Source: Hydrogenophaga sp. (GTDB lineage: Bacteria > Pseudomonadota > Gammaproteobacteria > Burkholderiales > Burkholderiaceae_C). Taken from it: 64,000 nt of DNA. Shown in pieces: positions 3,643 through 9,871 of the stretch. The stretch lies in assembly GCA_011391495.1 (NCBI GenBank), contig JAABQK010000009.1, forward strand, positions 1 to 64,000, read 5' to 3'. The notes beneath the pieces are model-generated. The model did no database searches. It was not told the DNA's origin and saw nothing but the letters and a program-made list of their open reading frames with translations. The position numbers and the translations under genes were made by a program. Every line of letters begins with the position of its first letter. Positions within the stretch are counted from its first letter, which is position 1.

Positions 3643-4311
3643 TCAGATCAGGCCGATCCAGCAAGCGCGCTGCACGGCCGCCAGCTTGTTGTCGGTCTGC
3701 AGCTTGGTCATGGCATTCGCCAGGTGGTAATTCACCGTGCGCTCGGAACAGTCCATGCGCGCGGCGGTTTCTCGTGCCGTCAGGCCTTCAAACGCCAAGT
3801 TCAGGCTTTCCTGCTCGCGCGGGCTCAGGCTGATGCGCTGCTCCGCGATCGCACGCCGCAGCATGGGCCAGATATTGAAGGCCGACCAGGCCAGCGCCGC
3901 GGCTTCCGCGCGATCGGCAAAAACACGCGGGCTGAACATGAAACACTCAAAGGCCCGACCGGCGGGCAGACTGAAGGCCACACGCACCAGGGTCTGATGA
4001 CCGTGGGCCAACCACAGGCGCCGCCAGCGACTGGCGTGTTCAAGAGATGACCTGGAGATGTCCTGCCAGGCAACCAGGGGGGCGTCGCTGTCACGCCAGC
4101 TAGCGCCGAAGTCCTGGCTTTCAGCGAGCGCCTGCGCGGCACCGAGCAGACGCGGGGGGTGGACCGCGAGCACTTCACGGTCATCCCGCCCGCCAAAAGG
4201 ATTCGGACCGAGCACCAGCACGGACTCCACGCCCTGCTCGCGCAGCGCACAGATCCAGTCGGCCAGCAGGGCATCAACACCTATATTGTCAAAGTTGACA
4301 GGCAAGGTCAT
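3643..4311 (-). CDS. LuxR-type regulator with N-terminal signal-binding-like domain
   Basis: The 222-residue protein has the two-domain layout of quorum-sensing LuxR regulators: about 155 N-terminal residues of alpha/beta type, then a GerE helix-turn-helix (LSPREQESLNLAF, GLTARETAARM, SERTVNYHLANAM) at about residues 162-212. There is no receiver aspartate, so it is not a NarL-type response regulator. The acyl-homoserine-lactone pocket pattern of the family (Trp/Tyr pair and Asp-Pro) is not evident; DSDAPLVAW may be a remnant. The ligand is therefore uncertain. No luxI is present in the window. I chose the ATG at 4311; an in-frame TTG at 4338 lacks a ribosome site. The gene diverges from the CqsS-like kinase gene and is the best candidate to bind the lux box before cqsA. 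Confidence 0.8.
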   Translation of the reverse strand: MTLPVNFDNIGVDALLADWICALREQGVESVLVLGPNPFGGRDDREVLAVHPPRLLGAAQALAESQDFGASWRDSDAPLVAWQDISRSSLEHASRWRRLWLAHGHQTLVRVAFSLPAGRAFECFMFSPRVFADRAEAAALAWSAFNIWPMLRRAIAEQRISLSPREQESLNLAFEGLTARETAARMDCSERTVNYHLANAMTKLQTDNKLAAVQRACWIGLI

Positions 4312-4400: not shown

Positions 4401-5705
4401 TTGCCCTGGGACCGTTTGTGGCTTCACACCTCCAAAGCATTGCTTCGGCGATGGTTGCTGGAGGAGGTGATCCACGCTCCCCTGGAGCCTATTTTGCACC
4501 CATCGGCGACGAGACTGCGGTGGGCCGGGCTGTCGATCGTCGCTGGGAACCTGCTGTTCTACGCCATCTGGTCACAGCTGTTGCTTCAACCCTACGAAAG
4601 CCTGCCCATTCGGCTGTTGATGGCGGGACTGGGTCTGCTCTTCTTTGCCCCGTTCATGACCAGGGACTGCGGCTCGCAGCAAAACGGCTGGATCTTTTCG
4701 GCCGTGTGCTGGCTGACCATGCCCATGTTCTTCTTCTGGATGTACTGGATGAACGAGGGCAACCCCGTCTGGCTGGCCAGTGTGAGCGCGATGCTCCTGA
4801 TCTACTACCACCTGACGGACTGGCGACTGGCAACCCTCGGCGCCAGTGCCGCGATCCTGGTGAGCTGGCCTCTGGCCCACAGTGGCCTGGGGCCCGCCGT
4901 GACCTCGTCATCCATCCCGATGGAGAACAGCGTCGTGATCGGATTTGCCTGGGCTGCCGGATTTTTGCTGGGGTTCTCCAGCGCCAATCTGCGGCGTACC
5001 CGCCTGTTCAACACGCTGAGCACCATGGCCGTGATGGCGCACGAACTGCGAACCCCCCTGTCCACCGTCAATCTGATGGGGGATGTGCTGCGCACGCTGT
5101 CCAAGAACGACCTGCCGGAAGCCAAGCGCAAAAAATTCGAGGAGCTGGCCACCCGGCTGCAAAATCTGGTGCGCAGCATGAACCGCCAGATCGACACCCA
5201 GATATCCAACGCCCAGCTGCTGCGCCTGCCACGCGAACAATTGCCGGTCATGGCAGCCGAGCTGGTGCAGGACGTCGTGAGCAACTACCCCTACCGATCC
5301 ACTCGGGAACGGGGCTGCGTGCGGGTCCACATCCAGCAGGATTTCTGTTTCCTGGGGTCCCGTCTGCTGTTCGGGCAGGTACTGACCAATCTGCTCAAAA
5401 ATGCCCTGCATTCGCTGGCCTCCGCCAGCAACGCACCCACCCCTGGCGATCTGCGTGTCGATGTCGGGGTGCACCGAGGAAAGGGGCGCATCGCGGTGTC
5501 GGACGACGGCATCGGCATCCCTCACGGGCAGCAGCACCGGATCTTTGAACCCTTTTTTTCCACCCAGGCCGGCGCGGGCCATGGTCTGGGCCTGACCTTC
5601 TGCAAAAACGTGGTGGAAGCAGCCCATGGAACGATCAGCGTGCACTCGGAACCCGGACTGGGCGCCGTCTTCATGATCGACCTCCCCCTCAACAAGAGCT
5701 CCTGA
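4401..5705 (+). CDS. cqsS: CqsS/LqsS-like membrane sensor histidine kinase
   Basis: This 434-residue kinase senses a signal through a six-helix membrane domain (residues ~38-195). It carries CqsS-like signatures there: LQPYESLPIRLL (62-73) and MPMFFFWMYWMNEGN (107-121). The cytoplasmic part has the H box MAHELRTPLS with phospho-accepting H214, the N box TNLLKNAL with N334, and G boxes SDDGIGIP (367-374) and GHGLGL (393-398). Vibrio CqsS has a C-terminal receiver; here it is absent and a separate response regulator follows 27 bases downstream, as in Lqs systems. The start is TTG at 4401, supported by AAAGGAG at 4388-4394 with a six-base gap. The likely ligand is an alpha-hydroxyketone made by the cqsA-type gene 3' of the regulator (inference). 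Confidence 0.86.
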   Translation: MPWDRLWLHTSKALLRRWLLEEVIHAPLEPILHPSATRLRWAGLSIVAGNLLFYAIWSQLLLQPYESLPIRLLMAGLGLLFFAPFMTRDCGSQQNGWIFSAVCWLTMPMFFFWMYWMNEGNPVWLASVSAMLLIYYHLTDWRLATLGASAAILVSWPLAHSGLGPAVTSSSIPMENSVVIGFAWAAGFLLGFSSANLRRTRLFNTLSTMAVMAHELRTPLSTVNLMGDVLRTLSKNDLPEAKRKKFEELATRLQNLVRSMNRQIDTQISNAQLLRLPREQLPVMAAELVQDVVSNYPYRSTRERGCVRVHIQQDFCFLGSRLLFGQVLTNLLKNALHSLASASNAPTPGDLRVDVGVHRGKGRIAVSDDGIGIPHGQQHRIFEPFFSTQAGAGHGLGLTFCKNVVEAAHGTISVHSEPGLGAVFMIDLPLNKSS

Positions 5706-5731: not shown

Positions 5732-6718
5732 ATGGCACTGACGATTTCACTGTTCCAGCGACCTGGTAGCATCCTGTTTCTCGACGACGATCCTGAATAC
5801 TTGGACATGCTGGGCATGGTCATCCCCGCGCATTGGCAAGTGGAGCTCTACTCCCGCCCGTCCGGTTTTTCCGAGCGCATGCACCAGGAGCCCGCCCACT
5901 GGGAAGCCGACGCTGCACTGCAGCTGCAGATGATCGATCGCTGGCGCCATGGGCAGCCCCTGATACCGCAGGTCCTGCGGTACTGGGCGACGCAGCCCTC
6001 TCGTTACCAGCTGGCCAAGACCTGTGTGGTGGACTACGCCATGCCCGGTACCAACGGCCTGCAGGTGCTCGACACCTTGCTGGACTGGCCCGGCTCACGG
6101 GTGCTGCTGACCGGTCAGGCCGATGAACAGATTGCGGTACAGGCGTTCAACAACGGTCTGATTGACCAGTTCGTACCGAAACAGGCTTCCGACATCACCC
6201 GCCTGCTGCTGGGCGTGTTGCGAAAGCTGGCGCTCGCCGCGCACCCCCGGCTCAACACGCTGTGGCGTGCGGTGCTGCGTCCGGCGCAGCAGTCCATGCT
6301 GCAGATACCCTCGGTGGCCCAGGCCCTGCAGGCTTACACCGAAAAGCACTGGGTGGAATACGTGGTGCTGGGCGAGCCCTTTGGCCTGCTGGGGCTCGAC
6401 GCCGAAGGCCGGTGCCACTGGCTGCAACTCGAGCCCACCGCCCAGCTCGGTGACCTGGCGGAGCTGGCCGCTTCGGCCGGGCTGGGCCTTGATGTGGTGC
6501 GCGCCATCGAATCGGGCCGGCGGCTCCCGGCGGTGGAACTGCACCAGCAGCTGGGGCTGCGTGGCCCAGTGCGTACGTCGCCCACACTGTCGATGGGTGA
6601 CGACGGCACGCTGCGTGCCGCCGTCTTCACCCTCGAAACCGCCGAGCTTCCGGCTCCGATCTACGCCTACCGGCACTTCCTGGAAGCCAAGGGCGGGCGC
6701 GCCATTCACGACGAATGA
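5732..6718 (+). CDS. Response regulator with insertion in the receiver and unknown output region
   Basis: The 328-residue protein begins with ILFLDDD (acidic residues 18-20) and carries the phospho-acceptor D101 in VVDYAMPGTNG, the switch threonine T127 in LLTGQAD and K150 in FVPKQ, a full receiver active site. About 50 extra residues (roughly 45-95, containing several Trp and His) separate the first acidic cluster from D101, whereas normal receivers have only about 35 residues there in total. The C-terminal 170 residues contain no helix-turn-helix, GGDEF or other output domain I can name. Its place directly after the kinase gene, and the LqsR/JqsR precedent, make it the partner of that kinase. 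Its 3' end overlaps that of the convergent cqsA gene by 13 bp. Confidence 0.83.
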   Translation: MALTISLFQRPGSILFLDDDPEYLDMLGMVIPAHWQVELYSRPSGFSERMHQEPAHWEADAALQLQMIDRWRHGQPLIPQVLRYWATQPSRYQLAKTCVVDYAMPGTNGLQVLDTLLDWPGSRVLLTGQADEQIAVQAFNNGLIDQFVPKQASDITRLLLGVLRKLALAAHPRLNTLWRAVLRPAQQSMLQIPSVAQALQAYTEKHWVEYVVLGEPFGLLGLDAEGRCHWLQLEPTAQLGDLAELAASAGLGLDVVRAIESGRRLPAVELHQQLGLRGPVRTSPTLSMGDDGTLRAAVFTLETAELPAPIYAYRHFLEAKGGRAIHDE

Positions 6719-7953
6719 GGCACTGCGGCCCGGGCACGCCGGGCAATCGGCCAGTCCCACGGCTTCACGATCGGGGCAATTTCGCGCGCCACGCACGCCA
6801 CATGGTCCATTTCGGCATCGGTGAGCGCAGCGTGCAGGGTCAATCGAACCAGGGTGCGGTTGCGCGTCGTGGCCGGTGCGCAAAAGACGGCGCCGAACAC
6901 GTCGCGCTCCTCCAGCCGGTCGCGCAACACCAGGGTGTCGGGCTCGGTTCCCGCTTCCAGCGCGATGATCTGCTCGGTACCCTGGTGCACGGGAAAACCC
7001 AGGTCCATGAACGACTCCCGCATGCGCCGGCTCAACCCATGCAGGCGCTGGCGCTCGGCCTCACACCCCTGGATCACATCCAGTGTCGCGCTCAGCGCTG
7101 CCACCTCGTGAGGCAGCAGGCAAGAACTGAAGATGTTGTGGTAGCTGGTGCTCAGAATGTAGTTTCGCAGGCCCGTGGGGATGTTGAAGTAGCCTGCACG
7201 CCCGGCAAAGGCCTTGGCCAGGCTGGCGGTGATGAAGTGCACGCGGCTGCTCAGGCCCAGCGCCATGCACAGGCCGGCCCCGCCCGGGCCATGGGTGCCG
7301 AGCGAATGGGATTCGTCCACCAGGATCATGCAGCGGCCCGCCTCGGCCACATCCACCACATCCACCAGCGGCGAAATGGCCCCCGTGGTGCTGTAGACCG
7401 AATCGACCACGACCAGCCCCGGGCCGTGTTTGGCGATCAGCCGCTGCAGGTGATCGATGTCGTTGTGGCGAAAGGCATGGGCCGGTGCCCCCGCGCGCCG
7501 GGCACCCTCCCACAGCGACGTGTGGGCCAGCAGGTCGATGTAGACCGGCGTCTGCGGATCGGCAATGCACTGCAGCAGGCCCACGTTGGCCGCGTACCCC
7601 GACTGGCACAAGACCCCGTCGTCCTTGCCGATCCAGCCCGCCAGCTTCTTCTCGAAAGCACGCACCGGGTGTGTTTCGAGCAAGAACGACCCCGACTGGA
7701 CGACGAATTCAGCATCGTGCCGGATCGCGGCGGTCTGCGCCTCGATGATCCGGGGGTGGCCGGTGACGGACAGGTAGTCGTTGCCGTTCAGGCGCACCGC
7801 GTCGGCGCCGGGGTCACGGCCATGGACCAGTGAGCGTCCGCCCCACAGATCGTTCCACCGGCTGATGAAATCCCGCTCGATCCGGTCGCACAGGTGGGGC
7901 GAAAAAGCAGGGTTGACCGGTGTGTTCTCGCGCGTCAGTTCAAGCATTTCCAT
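6706..7953 (-). CDS. cqsA: CqsA/LqsA-type alpha-hydroxyketone autoinducer synthase
   Basis: The 415-residue protein is a fold-type I PLP enzyme of the alpha-oxoamine synthase family. It shows NDYLSVTGHPRII (58-70), QSGSFLLETHPVRAFEKKLA (86-105), DSVYSTTGAISPL (184-196), VDESHSLGTHGPGGAGL (212-228) and the PLP lysine K247 in ASLAKAFAGRAGY. The HSLGTHGP context and the lack of 5-aminolevulinate synthase or KBL hallmarks favour the CqsA/LqsA/JqsA branch, which condenses an acyl-CoA with an amino-acid-derived substrate to make CAI-1/LAI-1-type signals. The start at 7953 has AAAGGAG seven bases upstream. It converges on the kinase/regulator pair and its promoter region carries a lux box. Confidence 0.9.
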   Translation of the reverse strand: MEMLELTRENTPVNPAFSPHLCDRIERDFISRWNDLWGGRSLVHGRDPGADAVRLNGNDYLSVTGHPRIIEAQTAAIRHDAEFVVQSGSFLLETHPVRAFEKKLAGWIGKDDGVLCQSGYAANVGLLQCIADPQTPVYIDLLAHTSLWEGARRAGAPAHAFRHNDIDHLQRLIAKHGPGLVVVDSVYSTTGAISPLVDVVDVAEAGRCMILVDESHSLGTHGPGGAGLCMALGLSSRVHFITASLAKAFAGRAGYFNIPTGLRNYILSTSYHNIFSSCLLPHEVAALSATLDVIQGCEAERQRLHGLSRRMRESFMDLGFPVHQGTEQIIALEAGTEPDTLVLRDRLEERDVFGAVFCAPATTRNRTLVRLTLHAALTDAEMDHVACVAREIAPIVKPWDWPIARRARAAVPHSS

Positions 7954-7998
7954 GGAGTTCTCCTTTAGGAAGTGAAAACCCCATTGAAAAAAGAAATC

Positions 7999-8014
7999 TG
8001 TGACCAAACGCACA
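7999..8014. promoter_or_regulatory. CRP-like dyad upstream of cqsA
   Basis: TGTGACCAAACGCACA matches the 16-bp CRP core TGTGA-N6-TCACA at nine of ten defined positions. It lies between the lux box and the cqsA start codon, centred about 54 bases before the ATG. A Crp/Vfr-type regulator could bind here; whether as activator or repressor is not clear from position. Confidence 0.45.
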
Positions 8015-8016
8015 GA

Positions 8017-8036
8017 CCCTGTCAGCCTTGACAGGG
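8017..8036. promoter_or_regulatory. Perfect 20-bp lux box upstream of cqsA
   Basis: CCCTGTCAGCCTTGACAGGG has perfect 8-bp arms with a four-base centre and fits the lux-box pattern NN-CTG-N10-CAG-NN exactly. Its centre is about 73 bases before the cqsA ATG (minus strand). If the box sits at -42.5, transcription would start near 7984, 31 bases before the ATG, which is plausible. Confidence 0.65.
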
Positions 8037-8115: not shown

Positions 8116-9228
8116 TCAGTTCTGGCGCCAGGGCAGGCCCTGGTGGCGCCAGCCACCCTTGTGTCCCCGCTGGGCATGGGCGTCCGGGTCGCCTTCGAAG
8201 CCTTCCAGAATATTGAAAGCTTCCAGCCCGAGCTCGGTGGCACGCTTGGCGGCGGCAATCGAACGCACACCGCTGCGACACAGCAGCACCAGTTTTTTGC
8301 CACCCGACGCCTGCCGGATCGCTTCATCAAACTGCGGATTCATGACCATGCCAGGCCATTGTTTCCAGGCCACCGGCACGGCGTCCGGCACAAAACCGAC
8401 CCACTCCCGCTCGGCATCGGTGCGCACGTCCACCAGCACCGCCTCGCCCGCCTGCACCCATTGCCAAGCCAGCTGGGGCGAGACATCGCCGGCATAACCC
8501 GCCTGCACAGGCCGCGGTTGCATCAGCAGCGCACCGTCGACGTCGTGCCGGATGCCCGACGTGAGATTGGCCGGCACGGCCTCGTCGATCCGGCGCGGTT
8601 TGGGCAAGTTCAACCCGTCCATGATGGCCACGAATTCGGCCTCGCTCTTGCCTGCCACCCGGGCGTTCCCGGCCTTTTCCGCGCCGACGGTGGAGTGGCG
8701 GCGCCCCTGGTAGTCGTGGCCAGGCCAGACGGTGGTGTCATCGGGCAAGGCAAACAGCACCTCGGTCAGGCTGTGGTACAGCTCCCGGGCGCTGCCCGAC
8801 TGGAAGTCCGTTCGGCCACAGCCGTTGATGAGCAGGGTGTCCCCCGTGAAGACGTGCTGGCGCCAGACGAAGCTCATGCTGCCGGCGGTGTGGCCTGGCG
8901 TGTGCAAGGCCCTGAGCGTCTCGCCGCCAAACTGCAGGGTGTCACCATGCTGGAGCTGGACCCCTGCGGTGCCGATCCCGCAGCCCGCCGGCGCCGCTGT
9001 CCTGGCTCCGGCCAGCTCGGCCAATTTGCCCGCGCTGGTGATGTGGTCGGCATGGGCGTGCGTCTCCACCGCCCAGACGAGCTTCAGGCCATATTCGCGC
9101 AGACTCGCCAGATCGCGCTCCAGCTGCTCGTCCACCGGGTCGATGATCAGCGCCTCACGGCTGACCTGATCGAACAGCACATAGGTGTAGGTGCTGGAGG
9201 CGGGATCGAAGAGCTGGATCGGGTTCAT
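8116..9228 (-). CDS. Persulfide dioxygenase-like MBL-fold hydrolase fused to rhodanese
   Basis: Residues 1-240 form a metallo-beta-lactamase domain of the ETHE1/persulfide dioxygenase type: THAHADH at 56-62, HTPGHTAGS and FTGDTLLINGCGRTDF further on, and WPGHDY. Residues about 265-365 are a rhodanese domain with active-site Cys317 in LLCRSGVRS. Such fusions oxidise glutathione persulfide to sulfite and transfer sulfane sulfur, detoxifying sulfide in the cytosol. The start at 9228 has GGAG six bases upstream. The gene lies 28 bases downstream of a CsoR-family repressor gene on the same strand, so the two form an operon. Total length of 370 residues fits the fusion class. Confidence 0.88.
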   Translation of the reverse strand: MNPIQLFDPASSTYTYVLFDQVSREALIIDPVDEQLERDLASLREYGLKLVWAVETHAHADHITSAGKLAELAGARTAAPAGCGIGTAGVQLQHGDTLQFGGETLRALHTPGHTAGSMSFVWRQHVFTGDTLLINGCGRTDFQSGSARELYHSLTEVLFALPDDTTVWPGHDYQGRRHSTVGAEKAGNARVAGKSEAEFVAIMDGLNLPKPRRIDEAVPANLTSGIRHDVDGALLMQPRPVQAGYAGDVSPQLAWQWVQAGEAVLVDVRTDAEREWVGFVPDAVPVAWKQWPGMVMNPQFDEAIRQASGGKKLVLLCRSGVRSIAAAKRATELGLEAFNILEGFEGDPDAHAQRGHKGGWRHQGLPWRQN

Positions 9229-9256
9229 GGCCACTCCGTGGGTCGGGGTCCGGTGT

Positions 9257-9502
9257 TCAGGAAAAGCGCGACAGCATGTCGGCCACCTCATCGGGCGGCA
9301 CGTCGCCCTGGGCGATCACGCAGCTGACCATGGTGAAAAACGTCTTGTCCAGCGCCTTGCGCGCCGCAGCCAGCTGCTGCGCCACCTTTTCGCAATCGGC
9401 ATCGGTCTCCAGCAGCTTCTGGATGCCGCGCAATTGCCCTTCAACGCGCTTGAGGCGCAACACCAGGGCGCGCTTTCGTTCGGGGTCGTGGACGGTGGTC
9501 AT
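9257..9502 (-). CDS. CsoR/FrmR-family repressor, probable thiol or persulfide sensor
   Basis: The 81-residue protein has the all-helical DUF156 core RLKRVEGQLRGIQKLLETDADC, with C37 at the end of helix 1, and ARKALDKTFFTMVSCVIAQ with C61. CsoR copper sensors bind metal through Cys-His-Cys; the His position is Val here and the second Cys is displaced by about four residues, so copper binding is unlikely. Two cysteines without the His, together with the downstream persulfide dioxygenase gene, suggest sensing of persulfide or another thiol reagent (inference). The start at 9502 has an AGGAA ribosome site. It probably represses its own operon. Confidence 0.78.
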   Translation of the reverse strand: MTTVHDPERKRALVLRLKRVEGQLRGIQKLLETDADCEKVAQQLAAARKALDKTFFTMVSCVIAQGDVPPDEVADMLSRFS

Positions 9503-9871
9503 GTCGGTTTCCTGTGATGAGCGCAATGGAGTCCTGCCACGCAACCATTTCGCCAGCAGATACCTGGGAGAGCATTCTAGATCGGCCGTTGTTTTCGCCC
9601 GGAGCCGGGCGTTTCAGCGCTTCTGTCAGGGCAAGCGCCCGCCCCCGGACCGGACAGAGCCAGCAGACCGGCCCGGCACCAGCGAAACGTCGTGAAGAAA
9701 AATTCAAGCACGGGCTGAAAATTATTCATGCTGCAACAACCCTGCAAAGTCGTTCAGAAACAAGCACTTGCCGTCACCGACAGGACAACCTGCTGGTGAA
9801 AACCCTGCCCGGCGCTTGCCGATATCTGGCGCATCATCGCCTGCCCGTTAACACCTCTCTGGAGACAACAG
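9503..9871. other. Intergenic region between the CsoR-like repressor and the TRAP operon
   Basis: These 369 bases hold no convincing gene. They should contain the divergent promoters of the repressor/dioxygenase operon and the TRAP operon. A locally AT-rich stretch around 9696-9745 is the best promoter candidate for the TRAP side. I could not identify a clear -35/-10 pair or a CsoR-type operator by eye. Confidence 0.5.

Follow-up and report, generated by a model that had tools for sequence, protein, structure and literature searches.

A lux-box-like dyad (minus strand, 8017-8036) was found before cqsA (minus strand, 6706-7953), and comparison with related genomes strongly supports control of this alpha-hydroxyketone-type synthase gene by a LuxR solo encoded nearby (minus strand, 3643-4311). 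The reading preferred here, to which we assign a probability of roughly 0.78, is that the dyad is the lux box of this regulator, which activates cqsA and limits its own synthesis, and that a leader hairpin gates translation. A LuxR dimer would bind the box at about -42.5 and would most likely activate cqsA from a promoter without a consensus sigma-70 pair. LuxR would probably limit its own synthesis via a second box in the start of luxR, and the cqsA mRNA would begin with a hairpin pairing the start codon, whose opening translation should need. The locus joins two signal families, and the synthase gene seems wired to a LuxR-type regulator in Hydrogenophaga, Polaromonas and Ramlibacter. LuxR control of cqsA is deduced from the conservation of the dyad, its nearly fixed spacing to a TTCAATG motif, the adjacent luxR gene, the shared absence of dyad and luxR, and the box within luxR. 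The first-pass annotation had proposed both LuxR control of signal synthesis and a link to carbon status; the former is supported by these features (with joint absence in five of six dyad-less loci), whereas the latter is not.

The product of cqsA matched the CqsA/LqsA model of NCBIfam (NF005526) at 554.2 bits, above the cut-off of 428, and is predicted to be an autoinducer synthase of the alpha-hydroxyketone type. On the plus strand lie a histidine kinase gene (4401-5705, domain match) and a gene for a response regulator in which no DNA-binding domain was detected (5732-6718, receiver match below the Pfam cut-off). The closest relatives belong to Hydrogenophaga. A CqsA/LqsA-type synthase with a linked kinase and response regulator is also found in the Jqs system of Janthinobacterium (PMC3566124); neither "LuxR" nor "promoter" appears as a word in the main text of that paper. 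Alpha-hydroxyketone signalling in Vibrio and Legionella proceeds via membrane kinases, and lqs-type clusters have been noted in Polaromonas (PMC3376566). Janthinobacterium luxR solos have been mentioned (PMC5080296), and the genera looked for are absent from the main text of a LuxR-solo survey (PMC10134790). No description of a lux box at cqsA was found in the open-licence papers searched, among which a single one, a review (PMC4187201), contains both terms. Just upstream of cqsA, the minus-strand region 8116-9544 holds an MBL-fold/rhodanese gene, which is Blh-like at a score below the NCBIfam cut-off, and, upstream of that gene, a CsoR-family repressor gene.

The dyad has the form CCCTGTCA-AGGC-TGACAGGG (core 8018-8035) and reads CCCTGTCAAGGCTGACAGGG on the minus strand from 8036 to 8017. 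It had been described as a 20-bp perfect dyad, which holds for its arms of 8 bases each, these being fully complementary, but not for the central AGGC, which is non-palindromic. The CTG-N10-CAG pattern of a lux box of about 20 bp is present, and its position 64-83 bases before the cqsA ATG (7953) was likewise confirmed from the sequence. Of 27 CTG-N10-CAG sites in the window (the whole 64-kb stretch of DNA analysed), the cqsA dyad is the only one with fully complementary 8-base arms. The genome to which the window belongs (3.23 Mb, 86% complete) has CCCTGTCA-N4-TGACAGGG once with up to one mismatch, the next-best place having two; this single occurrence counts against the LuxR reading. Judged by these comparisons and those that follow, the dyad is a real feature, beyond a chance match. 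A CTG-N10-CAG box also lies upstream of the signal synthase gene cepI in Burkholderia cenocepacia (the cep box; PMC1766932, Table 2), although there the synthase makes an AHL and forms a pair with its LuxR, and the box is less symmetric (PMC1766932).

Eighty cqsA loci were collected, of which 73 were evaluable after exclusion of L094 (truncated) and L109-L114 (27-31% identity). The core CCTGTCA-N4-TGACAGG was present within 500 nt upstream of cqsA without mismatch in 59 of the 73, with one mismatch in four and with two in four, giving 67 loci within two mismatches; the other six had at least four. Conservation, whose absence the first-pass annotation had named as refuting its reading, extends from close to more distant relatives. 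A control set of 2563 random 560-nt windows drawn from these loci contained no exact core; 65 had it within one mismatch, at least some of them presumably through the luxR copy of the box. Among other Burkholderiales, 17 cqsA genomes from outside the family were considered (L257 by a partial match), with identities of 45-51% in 15 and 33% in one of the 16 that had usable upstream regions; the dyad was found within one mismatch in none of these 16, and L244 has a two-mismatch dyad upstream. The dyad as an ancient feature of cqsA was rejected on this basis.

Downstream of the core, TTCAATG or a close variant follows after 30-32 nt in the 67 dyad loci and in the window, within a search range of 26-40 nt past the core; the variants of TCAATG in relatives are CCAATG, TTAATG, TGATGG and TCAAT. 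The motif belongs to TTCAATGG (minus strand, 7981-7988). In a profile built from 67 sequences no other stretch beyond the dyad varies so little, the dyad columns of this profile being blurred by spacing variation. From spacing and profile, the transcript is predicted to start at the A at 7984. With the second A of TTCAATG as +1, spacings of 30, 31 and 32 nt put the box centre at -42.5, -43.5 and -44.5, respectively, and across loci it mostly falls at -42.5 or -43.5. The box would thus be centred near -42.5, provided that transcription starts at TTCAATG. No sigma-70-type promoter was found between 7800 and 8300.

This geometry bears on the sign of regulation. In V. fischeri, lux boxes and a CRP site lie upstream of ainS, which LuxR represses (PMC5601948), and by this precedent the dyad could be a lux box from which LuxR represses cqsA. 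The likeness to ainS is that the synthase gene of another circuit is preceded by a lux box together with a CRP site (PMC5601948). The two cases differ in that both the product of AinS and the signal to which LuxR responds are AHLs in V. fischeri (PMC5601948), whereas the synthase here is of the alpha-hydroxyketone type, and in that LuxR here has no LuxI partner and is encoded in the synthase locus. Repression is considered unlikely, since the predicted position at -42.5 is better suited to an activator-dependent promoter and no sigma-70 promoter is recognisable, although both points are indirect. Activation of cqsA by LuxR is the likely outcome on the predicted geometry.

The dyad can also form an 8-base-pair stem and lies downstream of the MBL-fold/rhodanese gene (8116-9291) on the same strand with a weak terminator-like match at 8019-7994, so that it might serve as the transcription terminator of that gene. 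This is extremely improbable, as the 12 nt that follow contain at most five T in 57 of the 67 cqsA dyads (six to eight in the other 10), the spacing to TTCAATG is fixed, and copies of the dyad precede unrelated genes. An intrinsic terminator, which needs a T run after its stem, was accordingly rejected for the dyad, T tails being rare.

The dyad and luxR tend to be present and absent together. luxR was present in 63 of the 80 cqsA loci and in 61 of the 67 with a dyad (the fragment at L089 being counted), and in the remaining six the contig ends before or at the expected place of luxR. Five of the six dyad-less loci also lack luxR (L070, L090, L103, L104 and L107), and the association gives a Fisher p of 6e-7, uncorrected for kinship. 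L070 is a Polaromonas locus which has lost neither the response regulator and kinase genes nor coaX, while L103, L104 and L107 are Alcanivorax-type loci. Among 299 genomes of the family, cqsA was detected in 31, luxR (E below 1e-50) in 34 and both in 28. LuxI (PF00765 above cut-off) was detected in 32 of the 299 and in none of the 34 luxR genomes.

These counts also bear on the possibility that some other regulator uses the dyad and that luxR is only a neighbour. The pairing is broken at L044 (G019), which has a 50%-identical luxR yet no dyad, and at L089, and both count against the LuxR reading. Five of the 28 genomes with cqsA and luxR have no dyad at up to one mismatch, which counts against the LuxR reading. 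Genomes without luxR, luxI or cqsA still average 0.36 dyads at this threshold. We nevertheless regard another regulator as very unlikely in view of the co-occurrence and shared absence of dyad and luxR, the copy of the box inside luxR, and the enrichment of dyads in luxR-only and luxI genomes described below. At L089, the luxR next to cqsA and an intact dyad is a mere fragment interrupted by an internal stop, and neither a kinase nor a response regulator was matched there.

With up to one mismatch allowed, the 28 genomes that have both cqsA and luxR average 2.71 dyads each, the copies at these two genes being counted; the corresponding figures are 2.17 with luxR alone (n=6), 0.33 with cqsA but no luxR (n=3), 1.67 with strong LuxI (n=21) and 0.36 with none of the three (n=231), 10 genomes with weaker LuxI matches having been set aside. 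A reversed-pattern control gave 0.21, 0.00, 0.33, 0.14 and 0.16 per genome, respectively. Of 35 further sites in luxR genomes, a selection from the listed places, 34 lie outside called ORFs, and for 21 a gene reading away from the site begins no more than 200 nt off, according to a home-made ORF caller whose nearby coverage was 91%. Their neighbours vary by genus and include genes for ShlB/FhaC-type secretion, an NDH2-type dehydrogenase, a cellulase and a phosphonate-binding protein, among others. Four luxR genomes (L210, L211, L217 and L234) carry the dyad upstream of genes for ShlB/FhaC-type outer-membrane secretion; three of these genes were scanned (G047, G042 and G105), and the gene of G164 is 92% identical to that of G047. 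In L228 (G272), a genome with luxR but without a cqsA match, an exact dyad at 4293-4310 lies close to luxR in the gap between two convergent called genes.

Comparison with luxI loci is supportive of the lux-box reading but thin. In two of 10 luxI loci, both from one genus, a dyad with one mismatch precedes the luxI match by about 135 nt; upstream sites have three mismatches in L198 (at -128), two in L200 (at -415) and at least four in the rest. The eight loci with no upstream dyad within one mismatch count against the LuxR reading, and the downstream control windows of the 10 loci contained one one-mismatch and one two-mismatch site.

A second lux-box-like site was identified within luxR itself (minus strand, 4285-4302), covering codons 4-9; the copy in the window departs from the core at two positions. 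In most relatives these codons read CCTGT(C/T)AACTTTGACAG(T/C). The motif proline is encoded by CCT in 76 of 77 distinct luxR sequences, compared with 8% elsewhere in these genes, and the phenylalanine by TTT in 74 of 76, compared with 30% elsewhere in luxR genes; L089, L169 and L171, which have no motif, were dropped from this count, which is uncorrected for kinship. Such codon bias inside the box looks like selection on the DNA, and the position of the box at the start of luxR suggests self-repression.

The LuxR-type regulator is the proposed binder of the dyad. Its only Pfam match is the LuxR-type HTH domain (GerE, PF00196; 54.8 bits), and E166, L170 and G176, the three DNA-binding-domain residues examined, are invariant in 39 LuxR orthologues. 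These residues presumably correspond to TraR E178, L182 and G188. At a threshold of E 1, the autoinducer-binding domain PF03472 was detected neither in the LuxR of the window nor in that of L044, compared with 133 and 129 bits for two LuxI-linked LuxRs of the family; this counts against the LuxR reading. The AlphaFold2 model (mean pLDDT 87.4) has a fold like that of AHL receptors, whose chains make up its first 33 PDB matches at E-values of 4e-9 to 3e-5. The TM-scores by query length are only 0.30-0.52, perhaps through a different arrangement of the two domains. The WYDPWG motif is incomplete, with the places of P71, W85 and G113 kept (alignment A4) and those of W57, Y61 and D70 occupied by E64, F68 and A77 in an uncertainly aligned stretch (A4).

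No LuxI was found in the genome of the window (86% complete), which makes the regulator a LuxR solo. A standard AHL ligand is doubtful because of the departure from the WYDPWG motif and the unmatched PF03472. The non-AHL solos PluR and PauR are similar in being LuxR-type receptors without LuxI and with an altered WYDPWG motif (PMC4414361); they sense photopyrones and dialkylresorcinols, whereas the LuxR here is a putative receptor unmatched by PF03472. The hydroxyketone made by CqsA is a concrete candidate ligand, and it is possible, though we hold it only tentatively, that the LuxR solo is its intracellular receptor. If so, an autoinduction loop of the LuxI/LuxR style would have been rebuilt with an alpha-hydroxyketone, beside the membrane-kinase branch.

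The CRP consensus is TGTGA-N6-TCACA. A dyad matching it at 9 of 10 positions, TGTGCGTTTGGTCACA, lies at 7999-8014 on the minus strand, between the lux box and the gene, as the first-pass annotation had reported. In the register of the window, a score of at least 7/10 is reached by 19 of the 25 loci grouped by eye as Hydrogenophaga-like (window included), compared with two of 43 others; L049, Hydrogenophaga by title, falls outside the group. The chance of a best score of at least 7 in 36 nt is about 3% in loci at large. At about -22.5 from the predicted start, the site more likely fits repression than class I or class II activation. With its restriction to one clade and its repression-type position, it lends no support to the proposed tie between signal synthesis and carbon status. 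The site as part of the weak terminator-like stem (8019-7994) was also considered and dropped, the site being unconserved outside the Hydrogenophaga-like loci.

The cqsA leader provides a strong new lead, namely a putative RNA gate on translation. Folding and covariation identify a hairpin (minus strand, 7949-7987) which begins at the predicted transcript start and in which one arm, TCAATGG, is paired with the start codon of cqsA and with the stretch just ahead of it. The leader of the window folds at -16.1 kcal/mol (z -3.0), the eight leaders that were folded range in z from -2.4 to -6.3, and for 85 nt counted from the predicted start z is -2.05. Covariation was assessed in 63 distinct leaders with the stem taken from the fold of the window and with shuffles that retain kinship. 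Paired cells made up 79.8%, against 72.3 +/- 0.8% in shuffles and at most 60.4% when the stem was slid; cells changed on both sides numbered 79, against 31.5 +/- 4.6; and the covariation score was 0.304, against 0.182 +/- 0.012. The number of pairs with such two-sided changes, nine of 13, is ordinary by itself, being reached in 118 of 500 shuffles; the other four measures are unusual. A separate count found 458 of 567 paired, against 398.5 +/- 7.2 in shuffles.

With its location at the predicted start, the inverted repeat could instead work as a DNA operator at that point rather than as RNA. This is quite improbable, given that the arms drift while pairing is kept (the 79 two-sided changes above), that the start codon lies within one arm, and that loop length varies. 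As an RNA hairpin over the start codon, it would be a second, post-transcriptional gate and would make signal synthesis a case of RNA control. No known RNA family was matched in Rfam at E up to 1 between 7800 and 8200.

Start-codon openness in the 63 dyad leaders averaged 0.42, compared with 0.57 in shuffles. In 20 dyad-less loci (15 from outside the family plus L070, L090, L103, L104 and L107), whose start codons were picked by script and are in some cases doubtful, it averaged 0.67 compared with 0.69 and showed no trend. The hairpin as an ancient cqsA feature was rejected, these 20 loci having no start-codon closure relative to shuffles. A similar hairpin is kept at L070, where both luxR and the dyad are missing.
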